Assembly (NCBI RefSeq): GCF_000835495.1
Contig: NW_015622546.1
Coordinates: 2,110,883 to 2,174,882, forward strand
Reading direction: 5' to 3'
DNA length: 64,000 nt
DNA from: Cladophialophora immunda
Taxonomy: Eukaryota > Ascomycota > Eurotiomycetes > Chaetothyriales > Herpotrichiellaceae
Part shown: positions 6,159 to 13,580 of the stretch, in pieces
How positions within the stretch are numbered: position 1 is the first letter of the stretch
Layout of the letters: each line of letters opens with the position of its first letter
Notes under the pieces: generated by a model
What the model saw: the letters and a program-made list of their open reading frames with translations, nothing else
The model's database searches: none
What the model was told of the DNA's origin: nothing
Program-made: the position numbers and the translations under genes

Positions 6159-9018
6159 CTACTTGAGCAAAATCTTCAGATCTTCTATCAACCCGGTTCC
6201 TACGGCGCGGTTCTGCCCACTCATAGCCAATTGGGCCAGTCGTAGCTTTCTCTGTTGCAACTCTAGGATATTCTCTTCAATCGAATCCCGGACGACGTAC
6301 CGAATAGTCTTCACCGGCTTCGTCTGCCCCATTCGGTGGACTCTGCTGAGGGCCTGCTCCTCCACGGATGGATTCCATTGTGGTTCCAGGAGACATGCCA
6401 GATTTGCCACGGTGATGTCGAGGCCAACTCCGGCTGCAGAGATGGTGGCCAGCAGAACTTTGACCGATGGGTCCTTCCGAAAGGAGGAGAGGCTCAACTC
6501 TCTATCTCTGGGTGACATCGTCCCATCGAAACGTTGGAAAGCGAGTCCTGCCTCAGTGAGAGACTGGCTTACCAGGTCAAGGGTCCTTCGCCAGAAAGAG
6601 AACACGACAGCCTTGCCATCGTCTTCACAGAGATCCGAAACCAGTGATTGTATTTTCGAGGAGCAGATCATGACATCCTCGTTGATCTCGGACGAGGAGG
6701 CAGAAGGCGAGCTTTTCCCAGTTCGAGGAGACAGTGATTCAGACGGAGGGCATCGGAGATCCTGTCGACGCCCTGGTAGCCACGTTTGTCCAAGAGACCA
6801 AACGGGAGTTCCATCGGGAAACCCAAATTCGCTTTCGTCCATCGAATTGGAAGTCACGGCTTCAGAGGAGGCAGCATCAACAGTGCCAGCAGCCGAAAGA
6901 GTATCCGTCAGACTTGGGTCAGTCGTAAGACCAATTTCGGCCACAACGTTGTCGTCTATCAGAGAATCTTTCGCAGCGTCAATGGAAATGGAATCCGCGT
7001 CTATCTGGCCATGACTGCAGAGGCCTCTCAAGTCATTAATCCATTGAAGAATATGACAGTGCTTGGGCGTAGCCACAGAGCACAACGCATTGTCTCGGAT
7101 CCGCAAACGCACCTGCTCATAAATGCTCCGTTCTCGACCGTCAAAATCGATATGACGGATCTGGTCGGTGCGATCTGGTAGAGATAGTATGTTCTTCGAT
7201 CTTCGTATTGCAACACATTCAATGAGCGTTCTTAACTTCTGTACAGCTTTGAGGTCTGACCTCGATTTCCATGGTTGAACGATGTGTTCGTCAAACACAC
7301 TCGGCCTGTTGAATGGCTCCACCCGGAGAAAGTGAACCAACGCGGCGAGGTCACTCAGTCGGTTTTGAATCGGCGTTCCGGTGACAGCCCATCTCGATCT
7401 GGCTTCGATTGCGCAGACAGCCTTTGTGCGCAGTGCGGACAGATTAGCGATGTAGTGCGCTTCATCCAAAATAACGCGTCTCCAGGCTGACGAGAAAATA
7501 AGTGTTGAAGAGCTTGATATCCCATCGTTCAGAGTCTTTCGGTATTCAGATGCCACAACGTTGTAGGTAGTCAGGACAATATGATGACTGGAAAACCCTT
7601 CGTGAGAAATCTGCCGACGACTCCCGTGATAGACACACCATCTTAGGGAGTCCATTTTCAAATGTTCCTTCAGCTGATACTGCCAAGTCTCAAGGAGCGA
7701 CGCAGGCACTATGACGAGCGAACAGCAGGGTAGAGGTGCCCGAGCCATATGCAGAGGGAGCTCATGAACACACTGCATTGGATTGGTCGAATCGTGGTCT
7801 GATGCTAGTAGGGAAATCATTTGGAGTGTCTTCCCGAGACCCATCTGGTCGGCGATAAGTCCCCCGAAGAATTCCTTGGGTCTCGAATGTTGTCGTTCGC
7901 CAGTGATCACATTTGTGTATTCAGTAGTCCAAGTTCTTTTCTCGGTCCACATCTGGTGCGGAGAGTCGCCAACGCAGGAAGTACCTTCGTTCCTACGCAT
8001 AAAGAATAGAGCCTGTCTCTGGTGTGCAAGCAAGCGCGTGCGCAGCATTGCAGGACACTCAGCTTCCGGAAGTCCATCCGTGTGCAACAGTGTATCAAAC
8101 ACATCCGCAGGAGCGCTGAAAGTCTCGATGTTAGTCCTCGGCCTCAGAGATCTGGTCATGACCAGGTCGTCGTCCTGAGAGAGGAGTTGGGGGTTTCGGT
8201 AGGGCACATTGCGGTGGCAGATGACAGGGTCCTGGAGGTATATGGCAAGCTTGTCGAAGAACACGCCAAATTCTTCGCCGAAGTTTTCATTGCCAAAGAC
8301 ATTTACCAGGAGTTCATACTCCTTGGTTTGCGCAGGTTTCTTCCTCGTGCGTTGCGACTGGGATTGAACGGCGCGACAGTAATATTCCAGCGCTATATCA
8401 CGACCATTTTGCAGGTGTTGCAATACATCTGTTGTCCGGTTGCAGGTAATCTGAGCAATTCTTAATCGCGTCTCTCCACTCTGTGGAAATTCCGTAGCAT
8501 CATGTGCTTCGTATATCTGTCCAGAGTGTACCTCAACAGGAAAGCAATCTTGAGAGGTATCGAGATAATGTCGCGCTGACGGTCTCAAGTTTGCAACGAC
8601 AAACTTTTGGTCCACATTAGCCATGTCATTGCCTCGAAGCTCCAGAGGTTCTTACCATGCCGAAACACACCTGCGGAAACCCGTCATCTTCCTCAGATGG
8701 AGAGGCAGCCTGGCAAACATTGCCATCCGCGGTGTGCACGCTGCGTTCTTGGTTTGAGGTCTCGGCATTGGGAGGGAAGGATTGGTATGGAGAGGGAGGT
8801 CGCTCCAGAGATGTCAAATCCGGCTCTCGTGATTGGGAGTCTGGACGAGTCGTCGTATATGGACGTGTGGAAGATGTGATCCTTGAAGATGTGAACCCAG
8901 ATTCTGATGATGGCGGCGCGGGGCTCGCGGGATCTGTGGCTGCTAAGTTCAGAATTGTCTTGTTTTGCCAGCGGCCATCGATATCAAGCTTCCGTCTCTT
9001 GAACATGTCTTGCGCCAT
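6159..9018 (-). CDS. SNF2-family DNA-dependent ATPase, Rad5/HLTF-like, no RING finger
   Basis: Two exons on the minus strand (9018-8656, 8603-6159; 52-nt intron) give about 935 aa. The splice joins CFGM to FVVANLRPS, rebuilding the LCFGM-type segment seen before HIRAN-like regions of Rad5/HLTF/SMARCA3-type proteins. Motif I is DQMGLGKT (about 374-380) and motif II DEAH (about 501-504); WAVTGTPIQNRLSDL and, in the C-terminal helicase lobe, SAAGVGLDITVANL and SRVHRMGQTKPVKTIRY are also clear. Rad5/HLTF proteins carry a C3HC4 RING between the lobes; here that stretch (about residues 630-760) is Ser/Asp-rich without the Cys/His spacing. A nuclear remodelling or repair ATPase without E3 activity is inferred. 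It is divergently paired with the NACHT gene, 322 bp apart. Confidence 0.87.
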
Positions 9019-9340: not shown

Positions 9341-12300
9341 ATGTCATCAGGTGGACCTTCTCCAGCCTCAGTGATCGAATCGGCGTTTTCAAGATTTCAA
9401 GCATCTGTCAGTGCAGACGACGCGCGAACCTTTCACTCGACGACCCTCGAAGATGTATGGAAGGCAGCGGTGGAAATCGAGAGGGAGCAGCGACAACGCA
9501 GCGCCCTGCGAAACATGAAACGGATCGAGCCACTTCTGAAGACCTTGGGGGTGTATGCCTCAGCTCTCGACACTCTTTGTAATGGCACGCCATTTCTGCC
9601 ATGGGTGTGGGTAAGCAGTTTCTCATGCTACTGAAAAGACATGTCAACCAACTGATGGATAGGCACCGATCAAACTCATGCTTCAGGTGTGTCTCATTGA
9701 CGTGTCGGGCGCATATTCCTCCTCTATTAACGAGAACCTTTATAGCTCGCAACCCGACATCTTTCAAGTTTTGACAGTTTGATGGGAGCATACGTCAAAA
9801 TCGCTGATTCGCTTCCTCGATTCGATCGTTACAGTGTTGCTATTCCGCAAGGAGATTTCCAAAATGTCCTGGCACTCGTCTACGCAAACATTATCGAGTT
9901 TCATCGGCGGGCATACAAGTTCTTTAGAAGAAAAGGTAGATTAGCACCCGGTGATACTAGACTATGGCCAGGAGAGTTAGTTGACAGTCGCAGCATGGAT
10001 CCTCCTCTTCGAAACCGGGTGGAAAAGTTTCGAACTACGATTCGAAAGCATCTTGAAAGACCTAGCCTACCATCGTGATCTTGTCGACAGGGAAGCATGC
10101 TCTTTCGATCTTGTCGAAGCTGAACGGTCGCGTCAAAAGATTGACGAAGAAATTTCCAAGGCTGAGGATGACAGGGAGAGCTCTCATCTACAGGCTGTAT
10201 TGTCGTGGCTTTGTGTTGACGAATTATCACAAAATGACATCTTATGGCGACTGAAGGAAAAGAGATCCGATGGGACTTGCGACTGGATATTCAAGAACTC
10301 CCAATATCAGCACTGGGTGAAAAATGACTCAAAGACTCCTTGGCTCTGGCTCACTGGCATTCCGGGCTCAGGTAAGTCTATTTCTCTACGTCCAGACGCG
10401 ACTTCCCTGCATCTTCCTAGGTTAGAGGCTCGTTCCTTGCGCATGCTACTGTAGCACAAACTAGCCTGCTGATTCTTTCTCGATACGCATTGATCTGAGA
10501 GGCTCTGCTAATATAATTTAGGGAAGAGCGTGTTCGCTGCACACATCATCGAGACATTGCGCGAGGACAAGGGACAGGCAACCCTGTTTTACTTTTGTCT
10601 TCAACAGGCAGCTGGCGAGGACAAGGCAAGCGTGTTCCTTCGCACATTGGCTATTCAACTGGTTCGAGATCTTCCTGGACTTGCGGCTTTCATCTGGGAT
10701 GCACATGTACGCAACGCCCATGTCCCTTCTATCGACATCCTTGAAAAGCTGCTCCCGATCTTGATTTCTGGTGCCTCAGCAGCCCGCATTGTTCTGGACG
10801 GCCTTGATGAGTATAGGTATCAAGACTACAAAACCATGCTGGACGTGCTTTCCAAACTGTGCAGAAAGAGCCGTTGTAGCATTCTTATCTCTAGCAGGGA
10901 CGATGCGATAATCAGTTCGAAATTGCGAAATACACCGAAGATTTCTCTGATAAATGAGGTTGACGCCGTCCGAAAAGACATGGGAATATTTGTGGCTGCC
11001 AGGATAGAGCAGGCAATGAGAGCTTGGGATCTTGAGATATCAGATGATACTCAGAAACTGGGACAGGCGCAGCTACTGCAGAAATCGAAAGGTTGGTGAA
11101 AAGCTCTATTATCCCGGACCTTGCAATGCTGGGACTAAGTCAAGCAGGAATGTTCCTCTGGGTCGAACTAGTGATCGACAGCCTCCAATACTCGTATACA
11201 GACGACGACTTCCTCCAAAGGATTGATGAGCTCCCGGAAACCTTGCAAGCTGCGTAAGCCCTTTGCACAAACGCCAAAGTCTACGTCTTTTCCTAACACT
11301 ATCAGTTACGATCGAATTGTGGAGAAAATTCTGAGTATCGAGGACCGGCGGACACGGCAGAAGCTGACAAGCCTCCTGGAGTTGATGACCTATACCCAAA
11401 GACCTCTCTCTATCGACGAACTCCTATCGGTATTAGCTCTTGACCCTTCCAAAGCAGGGGACCAGCTACCCGCACCATTGGCCCCAAAGATTTTGGACTT
11501 CTGCAAACCACTTATTGATCTCTCGTCCTCGGCGGCGGTCAACTTCGTTCATTTCTCTGTCAGGGAGTAAGGAATCATCCTCTCCCTAGACCCCCGCCGT
11601 GCTAAATTGTGACCAGGTACTTTCGAGACAGCACGAGCAAATTCCACATCCGCGAGATCAGCGCTCATCTAGCCGTATCGGATGCGTGCTTAACTTATCT
11701 GAATACCACAAGTGTGTTTCTCACTGAGGATTTTCGAACAAAGAGACTTCATCAAATAGTTCAAGGCCAACGAGCTATTCATCGATACAGTACTGATCAT
11801 TGGGCTCAACATTTATCACAATGCCTCGATGCAGGAGATGAAACTCAGAGACTGGAGCTTGCCGCTATAGCTTCAAAACTCGGAGCGATGAATTGGATGT
11901 TCAAGCCAAGTGAACAAGGTGTATCCGCTGATGTTGCTAGCATCCTACAAAAGATAAGCTTATTCAAGGAAGAGGCCTTGGATCTAGAGCGAAACTCGGA
12001 AGATCTAGGTGGTAAGTGACGTATATGCACACGTTTCGGTTGCACAGCGGCTAACTCAAGCGAATATCTAGAATTTCGGACGAGTCTCATCAACCGCGAT
12101 CCGACCTATCTCTGTCAAATTGTTGAGAGGTACGAGGCTGATATCGAGAGTCTACTCTCCCTCACGGACGAGGAGCTGCCTGCTGAAATTGAGAAGTCGG
12201 ACCTCATTGCGTTTCGAGACAAATTCTCGACAGGGGCTTTCCGCTGCAGATACTACGGATGCAGCGACAAGACCAATCTCACTTTCCAAAGCACGGCAGA

Positions 12301-13580
12301 AAGAGACAAGCACGAACCAACCCATGTGCCTCTGTTTAATTGTCCCAAATCGTATTGCGTCTGGAAAGACATCGGCTTCAGGAACAGGCAAGAATTGGAA
12401 GCCCACATGCGGTACTACCATCCCGATACCTTGGACGTTCCAATCCCAGCGATTCCGGCCCAAATTCCTGATGTAGGGCACGACCTGTGGAAGCTTAGCC
12501 TCGACGACTTGCCTGACCACCTAAAAGAGATTGGTACCGGCTGGCATGCTGTGTTCAATCCCAAAGTCCGCCGCTCTCTCAATATCTCGCTGATAGCTGA
12601 TTTCAAGCCCGACTCTCTCGTGGGTTGTGCAGCTATCTCATCCAACTGTCTCCTCTTAGCGACGGGTTGCAACCGTATGGGGACGATTTTCGATGTCCCC
12701 ACCGGACAAATAATGTCTCGACTTGACCACGGCTTATCTGATAAACCTCCCCGTGACCATTATGTTAGAGCTATTTGCTTTTCACCCAATGGGAAAGTCG
12801 TGGTCACTAGCTGCGAGGACAAGGTGATCCGGTTTTGGGATCCTACAACCGGCGCGATGAAGTTCGACTTGAAAGGGCATGAAAACACCATAAATGGCCT
12901 AGATTTCGCAGCAAACGGAGATTTTCTCGCATCCTGCTCTGATGACCTTACTGTCAGGCTTTGGGACGCCCGGACGGGTGTTCAGAGAGCCCTTTTCCAC
13001 AGTGAGGCTGGATTCGTGGCTGTCGCAATATCCCCTGACTGTAAGTTCGTGGTAGCTGGGAGCTGGGATGGGTATCTTCGAGCCTGGGATGTATCTGGGA
13101 GAAGATTGGTGTTCACAGCGGAAGGACACACACTCGCACTTGTCGACGTTAGATTTTCTCCGCAAGGGGCAAATTTGCTTACTTCGAGCTTGGACAAGAC
13201 GGTGAGGATATGGAGCTTTGCAGAACAGGACCCAGGCTCGAGTATCTGCTGTGTCAAGACTATGACAGGACACGCGGTTGGTGAAGCTCTCCGCTTAACC
13301 CTTGACATCAAAACTCACGTCTTTGCAGTTCTTCGTACAATCCGCCGCTTATACCCACGACGAAAACTGGATTCTATCAGGAGGAGGTGACAACAACGTC
13401 TATTTCTGGGATCCAACAACAGGCGTTCCTCATCTGGCGTTGATGGCCAACGAGAGTAACGTCTTTCGAGTGATTCCTTTTCCAAAGAATGACCTCCCTC
13501 CAGGGGAAGGGATGTTCGTGACTGTATCCGCAGACAACACAGCCCGAATTTGGCACTACTTTCCTTATAAAAAAAGGTGA
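9341..13580 (+). CDS. NACHT (STAND/NLR-like) receptor with two C2H2-like fingers and a Tup1/RcoA-like WD40 propeller
   Basis: Ten exons: 9341-9610, 9663-9686, 9746-9935, 9994-10371, 10522-11091, 11148-11253, 11306-11566, 11617-12011, 12072-13276, 13329-13580; about 1216 aa. The N-terminus (about 1-240) matches the helical DUF7708-type domain of fungal NLRs (LEDVWKAAVEIEREQ, AWILLFETGWKSFELRF). NACHT follows: Walker A GIPGSGKS (about 282-289, split by an intron), Walker B IVLDGLDEY (about 376), and the SKGMFLWVELVIDSL segment restored by the 11092-11147 intron. Two C2H2-like fingers lie at about 788-850. The C-terminus is a WD40 propeller resembling Tup1/RcoA, with its leader (LPDHLKEIGTGWHAVFNPKV), LATGCNR...IFDVPTGQ and the terminal ARIWHYFPY. 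NACHT-WD proteins act as nucleotide-dependent switches in heterokaryon incompatibility or immunity; the ligand here is unknown. The end could extend to 13681 through an optional intron, 13577-13629. Confidence 0.86.

Follow-up and report, generated by a model that had tools for sequence, protein, structure and literature searches.

The receptor gene and its Tup1-type C-terminus

The gene in question lies at positions 9341 to 13580 on the forward strand of a 64,000-nucleotide stretch of Cladophialophora immunda DNA (the window, located on contig 6 of the 42.2 Mb genome that was searched) and encodes 1216 residues followed by a stop codon. The ten-exon model contains only GT-AG introns, is free of inner stops and combines a DUF7708 domain, a NACHT domain, a pair of C2H2 zinc fingers and the leader and propeller of the co-repressor Tup1/RcoA, as assigned from the model, Pfam and relatives. 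The coordinates and the order DUF7708, NACHT, propeller had been proposed in a sequence-only reading of the same DNA, and both are confirmed by the model together with Pfam. The C-terminal part derives from Tup1/RcoA and not from HET-E-type repeats, a conclusion supported by sequence identity, profile match, tree grouping, intron position and predicted fold.

The leader (12461-12592, forward strand; QIPDVGHDLWKLSLDDLPDHLK..WHAVFNPKV) aligns to the host RcoA from its residue 265 and falls within the fold match to the solved Tup1 structure (1erj). It is followed by a seven-bladed Tup1-type propeller (12593-13577, forward strand), identified by alignment, profiles and fold. From leader to end, 149 of 365 residues are identical to the host RcoA (41%, E 1e-86 when the two sequences are compared directly). 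With the window protein left out of its construction, a Tup1 profile recovers it as a single domain covering profile positions 3-349 of 351 with 283.9 bits. For 15 other WD40 proteins the best single domain reaches at most 177.7 bits and starts no earlier than position 84, and summing their repeats gives 305-526 bits per protein. Placed in competition, the Tup1 profile scores 284 bits on the window propeller vs 188 bits for a profile of ordinary NOD-like receptor (NLR) WD40 domains. Within the propeller, intron 9 (13277-13328, forward strand, phase 0) separates GHA from FFVQ, and the host RcoA (the copy at locus L039) carries a phase 0 intron between GHK and DYVL, at the same codon boundary. 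Near-identical WD40 repeats are not seen, no direct repeat family of 20 bases or more being found within the propeller DNA. A HET-E-type origin is thus rejected by the Tup1 profile, the tree grouping and the profile contest, and the claim that the C-terminus follows the Tup1/RcoA order rather than that of HET-E/HET-D is borne out. The further proposal that the leader was captured along with the propeller in one fusion gene also holds, given the alignment from RcoA residue 265 and the existence of a counterpart in Phialophora macrospora (P0003).

The structure prediction that the earlier reading had suggested gives the same answer: the closest solved structure to the propeller model is Tup1 (1erj), which leads the fold search by a wide margin. 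The model is reliable for the propeller only, with propeller blocks mostly at 84-92 and some loops at 53-79 on the predicted local distance difference test (pLDDT), against a mean pLDDT of 56.5 and a predicted template modelling score of 0.39; the alignment supplied to AlphaFold included other fusions. The N-terminal coiled-coil part of Tup1/RcoA is the Ssn6-binding portion. Both this part and the linker are absent from the receptor, where the match begins at RcoA residue 265, and the 130 residues ahead of the leader show no more similarity to the RcoA linker than shuffled sequences do (47 of 300 as high).

The remainder of the protein constitutes the receptor chassis. The N-terminal region (9341-10097, forward strand; residues 1-196) contains introns 9611-9662, 9687-9745 and 9936-9993 and carries DUF7708 (PF24809) at residues 66-196 (E 9.2e-15); residues 1-200 are 84% identical to the P. 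macrospora counterpart. The Pfam run was made on a gene model four residues longer than the final one, with identical numbering up to residue 478. The NACHT region (10272-11091, forward strand, from residue 255) matches NPHP3_N (PF24883) at residues 255-413 (E 3.1e-35) and NACHT (PF05729) at residues 279-425 (E 7e-12); its Walker A motif, GIPGSGKS, is split by intron 10372-10521, and its Walker B motif reads IVLDGLDE. The C-terminal WD40 repeats are also recognised by Pfam. The protein therefore combines a NACHT domain with both Walker motifs, an N-terminal accessory domain and a C-terminal repeat sensor, the features that define fungal NLRs of the STAND (signal transduction ATPases with numerous domains) class. 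The two C2H2 fingers (12245-12421, forward strand; residues 790-848), read from the sequence, lie between NACHT and propeller, and in a seven-protein alignment their four cysteines and three of the four histidines are invariant. Neither these fingers nor the intron position in common with RcoA had been noted in the sequence-only reading. At least 57 NACHT matches occur genome-wide at E <= 0.001, at least 52 of them above the family cut-off. Four receptors of the same genome (L060-L063) are built on a DUF7708-NACHT-C2H2 chassis as well, with 28-34% identity to that of the window receptor. Their tails are disordered, ankyrin-like or made of additional C2H2 motifs, and no Tup1 profile match was found downstream of them in the frames tested.

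Exon 9 (12072-13276, forward strand) comprises 1205 bases in one open frame and holds the C2H2 pair, the leader and about five blades. Because this exon is uninterrupted, the join between receptor and propeller is independent of any splice site, and a merger of two genes is unlikely. Intron 5 (11092-11147, forward strand, 56 bases, GT-AG) was positioned by comparison with P0003; a frameshift considered near 11080 was discarded once this intron had been placed. Directly upstream, on the opposite strand, lies an SNF2-type helicase frame (window 6162-8651, reverse strand). In the repeat search around the gene, the seven direct families (two copies each) and two inverted pairs recovered were short and imperfect throughout, with no sign of a mobile element. 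The window contains no Rfam matches at gathering scores.

Counterparts, other fusions and their trees

The closest protein is P0001, a record labelled Cladophialophora immunda and 100% identical across the 441 C-terminal residues searched. With residues 730-945 as query, only P0001 and P0003 (66% identity) were found at E <= 0.001 among 688 candidates. P0003 has the same domain arrangement, so the fusion occurs in two species, both belonging to the Herpotrichiellaceae. When P0001 is compared with residues 286-440 of the window protein, its Walker A motif is GSGES and, towards Walker B, about 54 residues present in the window protein are missing; this may reflect a strain difference or an annotation or sequencing error.

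A search for long proteins with the RcoA leader gave 205 hits at E <= 0.01, and the fusion survey covers 15 proteins from the best 120 of these 205. P0001 and P0003 are not among the 120 of 205 matches listed; strongly diverged fusions are therefore missed, and the fusion set is a lower bound. The 15 proteins comprise three of NLR type, two of ankyrin type, three of kinase type and seven true Tup1s, several of which are apparently merged with neighbours. Pfam was applied to six of the eight fusions. Among the NLR type, P0126 (Gaeumannomyces hyphopodioides) and P0134 (Sclerotinia nivalis) carry NPHP3_N by Pfam and DUF7708-like and C2H2 regions by alignment, and P0130 is a metagenome fragment with C2H2 and ankyrin repeats. 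The sequence-only reading had called for a search for further combinations of NACHT and Tup1 propeller, and P0003, P0126 and P0134 answer to this description; the P0130 fragment begins behind the NACHT domain. The Fusarium proteins P0150 and P0154 are ankyrin-repeat proteins with C2H2-like motifs and a C-terminal Tup1 leader and propeller, and the Marasmius proteins P0121-P0123 are kinases, each with two tandem Tup1 propellers including their leaders.

The propeller tree was built from 11 fusion propellers and 10 of the 15 scored other WD40 proteins, and it holds no RcoA from Sordariomycetes or Leotiomycetes. The window propeller groups with Tup1, and the Marasmius propellers are nested in basidiomycete Tup1 (support 100/99). 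A single origin of all 11 fusion propellers is rejected by the approximately unbiased (AU) test (p 1.4e-36). The same test does not reject one origin of the five NLR-type propellers (p 0.476), of the four without P0130 (p 0.481) or of the NLR and ankyrin fusions together (p 0.325), nor a placement of the window/P. macrospora pair with Chaetothyriales RcoA (p 0.286). In the chassis tree, P0130 groups with L062 and L063 of the C. immunda genome, which lack Tup1 (99/99), and P0134 groups with L060 (88/89); this tree is poorly rooted, in that no branch separates the outgroup from all other sequences, and P0130 is represented in 41% of the columns. The breakpoints differ as well. The RcoA linker is clearly retained by P0126 alone: its alignment scores 159, where shuffled sequences average 105 and one in 300 does as well (two in 300 with a second RcoA). 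For P0130 and P0150 the match to the linker of the second RcoA is borderline, being equalled by 16 and 22 of 300 shuffled sequences. Collectively, the chassis tree and the breakpoints suggest, without proving it, that several separate captures may have occurred among the NLR-type fusions.

The partner-binding face

The top face of the Tup1 propeller is formed by three positions per blade, R1-2, R1 and D-1, and seven residues of Schizosaccharomyces japonicus Tup11 are needed for Fep1 binding according to isothermal titration calorimetry (ITC), as described in PMC3419727. Motifs served to locate the 21 face positions on yeast Tup1, and spacing to locate the seven ITC residues; the yeast residue numbers used are consistent with the sequence. 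By alignment, the face positions of the window protein are L914, G916, N932, Y962, R964, E980, T1004, N1006, D1022, G1045, V1047, W1063, A1087, V1089, L1105, F1135, Q1137, G1153, N1177, F1179 and A1201. The seven ITC-reported residues are all present in each of nine true Tup1s, and in the NLR fusions P0130, P0126 and P0134 they number seven, six and six. The window protein retains two and its P. macrospora counterpart three. Both Fusarium proteins keep five of seven; of four Marasmius propellers, one keeps all seven and three keep two.

Among the nine true Tup1s, 19 of the 21 face positions are invariant if one gap is allowed, and 16 without gaps. Two Chaetothyriales RcoAs agree at 21/21 positions, and yeast Tup1 and the host RcoA at 20/21. 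The window and P. macrospora receptors agree at only 2/21 face positions vs 193/319 elsewhere (p 4e-6), the latter count varying with the column set (193/319, 163/278 or 199/329). Face agreement stays at 2 or 3 of 21 across five alignment modes, and only 1 in 100,000 random 21-column sets is as low. It also falls below that of the most variable columns of true Tup1s (2/21 vs 42/76, p 1.5e-4). Overall identity between the two receptors is 80% in the chassis, 78% in the leader and 55% in the propeller, and the face is the most divergent part between them. Of the positions invariant in Tup1, the window protein retains 6/19 on the face vs 64/105 elsewhere (p 0.023).

An analogous pattern is found in the Marasmius kinases. 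The two propellers of one kinase agree at 2/21 face positions vs 238/315 elsewhere (p 1e-9), and the two copies in P0122 differ chiefly at top-face positions. Ten of the 15 Marasmius propeller pairs reach p < 0.05 and five do not; the pairs are not independent, the comparison includes both propellers of P0123, and 19 of 21 positions could be read in the incomplete first propeller of P0121. In HET-E, the top-face sites under positive selection are the pairs (7, 9) and (25, 27), according to PMC1805685; by their spacing these would correspond to R1-2, R1, D-1 and D+1. By this analogy, the captured co-repressor propeller seems to change at the same places as known fungal recognition propellers.

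Interpretation and comparison with known systems

Taken together, the data make it probable that the gene encodes a fungal NLR with the captured partner-binding half of RcoA/Tup1 as its C-terminal sensor, and that the face of this sensor has since been rebuilt. The near-complete divergence of this face between two related species suggests a role in recognising something fast-changing. With two of seven partner-binding residues kept and 2/21 face positions alike, a simple guard is unsupported, and a rebuilt sensor is more likely. From these patterns we infer selection, a ligand and the response steps as follows. The propeller was probably captured as a bait, that is, as a copy of the target of a parasite or rival strain or of a monitored self protein, and its face would afterwards have been rebuilt in this lineage for a different or changing ligand. 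At rest, the propeller would hold the NACHT domain, and a ligand docking on the top face would release it. The NACHT units would then assemble, with the N-terminal domain starting a response that, by the general fungal NLR scheme, is probably cell death or arrest.

Several points weigh against this explanation. In the comparison of the window protein with the host RcoA, agreement is 6/21 on the face and 114/278 in the rest (p 0.36), so that no significant excess of face change is seen; the Fusarium pair is alike at 17/21 face positions (p 0.76), again with no excess. The face-divergence argument draws on one species pair, compared as protein. When PDB chains are ranked by total phmmer score, 1erj takes only fifth place, below repeat-rich WD40 chains and 5afu_3, the letters aligned to 5afu_3 being those of Tup1. 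A basal position of the window/P. macrospora pair relative to the Tup1 group, which puts it on the WD40 side of a branch, is not rejected (AU p 0.403), and owing to the long branch of the pair (1.2) its place within the Tup1 group is uncertain. The altered Walker A and partial NACHT of P0001 mean that the gene may be non-functional in some strains, and the literature search found no function for DUF7708.

The most serious competitor is a strict integrated decoy, in which the propeller would still mimic RcoA, bind the attackers of RcoA and let the receptor report them. The RcoA origin favours it, as does the finding that Topless, a plant co-repressor, is an effector target (PMC8126959). Nevertheless, it is unlikely for the window receptor and its P. 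macrospora counterpart, where so few partner-binding residues remain, and the earlier proposal that the propeller guards or mimics the co-repressor is accordingly unsupported for this gene. The residues retained in the Gaeumannomyces, metagenome and Sclerotinia fusions (six, seven and six of seven) speak for a decoy, and a guard or decoy role would fit those proteins better. A transcription regulator, with the fingers on DNA, the propeller recruiting repressors and NACHT acting as a switch, would explain why the C2H2 pair adjoins a co-repressor propeller within one exon; it is made very unlikely by the similar fingers and different tails of L060-L063 and by the largely lost partner-binding face. 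Decay of a propeller drifting free of constraint is about as unlikely: it could account for the lower between-species identity of the propeller relative to the chassis and for the defects of P0001, but the frame is open in both species, the leader is still 78% alike, and the face is less conserved than even the most change-tolerant Tup1 columns.

The sequence-only reading had recognised that grouping with ordinary NLR WD40 repeats would count against it. Tree and profiles favour Tup1, with the possible basal position of the pair in the Tup1 group as the one reservation. An ordinary HET-D/HET-E-kind receptor with a chance resemblance to Tup1 could draw on that basal placement, on the mutual similarity of WD40 propellers and on the phmmer ranking, but it is extremely improbable in view of the leader, the whole-length profile match, the intron in common with RcoA, the outcome of the profile contest, the lead of 1erj in the fold search and the lack of near-identical repeats in the propeller DNA. 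Two adjacent genes wrongly fused in the model are just as improbable; the model was derived from the DNA sequence and comparison with P0003, but the C2H2 pair and propeller share the single 1205-base exon, and the arrangement is identical in P. macrospora.

More broadly, and as a tentative proposal somewhat short of an even chance, the Tup1/RcoA propeller may have been captured repeatedly into immune-type receptors (NLR, ankyrin and kinase; Ascomycota and Basidiomycota), first as a true decoy with the face intact, the face then being rebuilt under diversifying selection. If so, parasites or rivals of fungi would have the global co-repressor as a constant target, and the path from decoy to sensor would be readable in living genomes. 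With the series of fusions, from a face mostly kept to a face rebuilt, it becomes testable whether copies of host targets serve fungal NLRs as bait, and by what the fungal co-repressor is attacked; selection tests and binding assays can start from the 21 face positions. Since the captured domain is hidden in the WD40 class and would be filed as canonical by Pfam-based surveys, further examples may have been overlooked.

Plant NLRs offer well-known examples of integrated decoys. Among fungi, the clearest published case found is the CHK-2 kinase domain in Sordariales NLRs, proposed as an integrated decoy in PMC12258605, with zinc-finger NLRs named as further candidates; PMC5658179 likewise mentions a zinc-finger NLR as a possible decoy. 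Domain capture by fungal NLRs is thus already published, and to propose the present gene as an undescribed system, as the earlier reading did, was too strong; among the open-licence papers listed in a literature search, none reports a Tup1 propeller within an NLR. Like the CHK-2 NLRs, the window receptor joins a NACHT NLR to a C-terminal domain from a conserved host protein; unlike them, it captured the Tup1/RcoA propeller, whose binding face has diversified. It therefore has the host-derived extra domain of an integrated-domain NLR without the retained effector or partner face. With HET-D/HET-E (NWD) of Podospora it shares NACHT and a WD40 propeller, the HET top face holding selected sites (PMC1805685), and it differs in its divergent blades, which match Tup1 blade by blade, and in the Tup1 leader, DUF7708 and C2H2 pair. 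With RcoA/Tup1 it has in common the leader, seven blades, the C-terminal end and one intron position, whereas the RcoA N-terminal part and linker are missing and the partner-binding face is mostly altered. Finally, the combination of NACHT with C2H2 fingers is shared with fungal C2H2 NLRs, which number 34 of 4613 Sordariales NLRs in PMC12258605, and with L060-L063, from which the window receptor is set apart by its tail.

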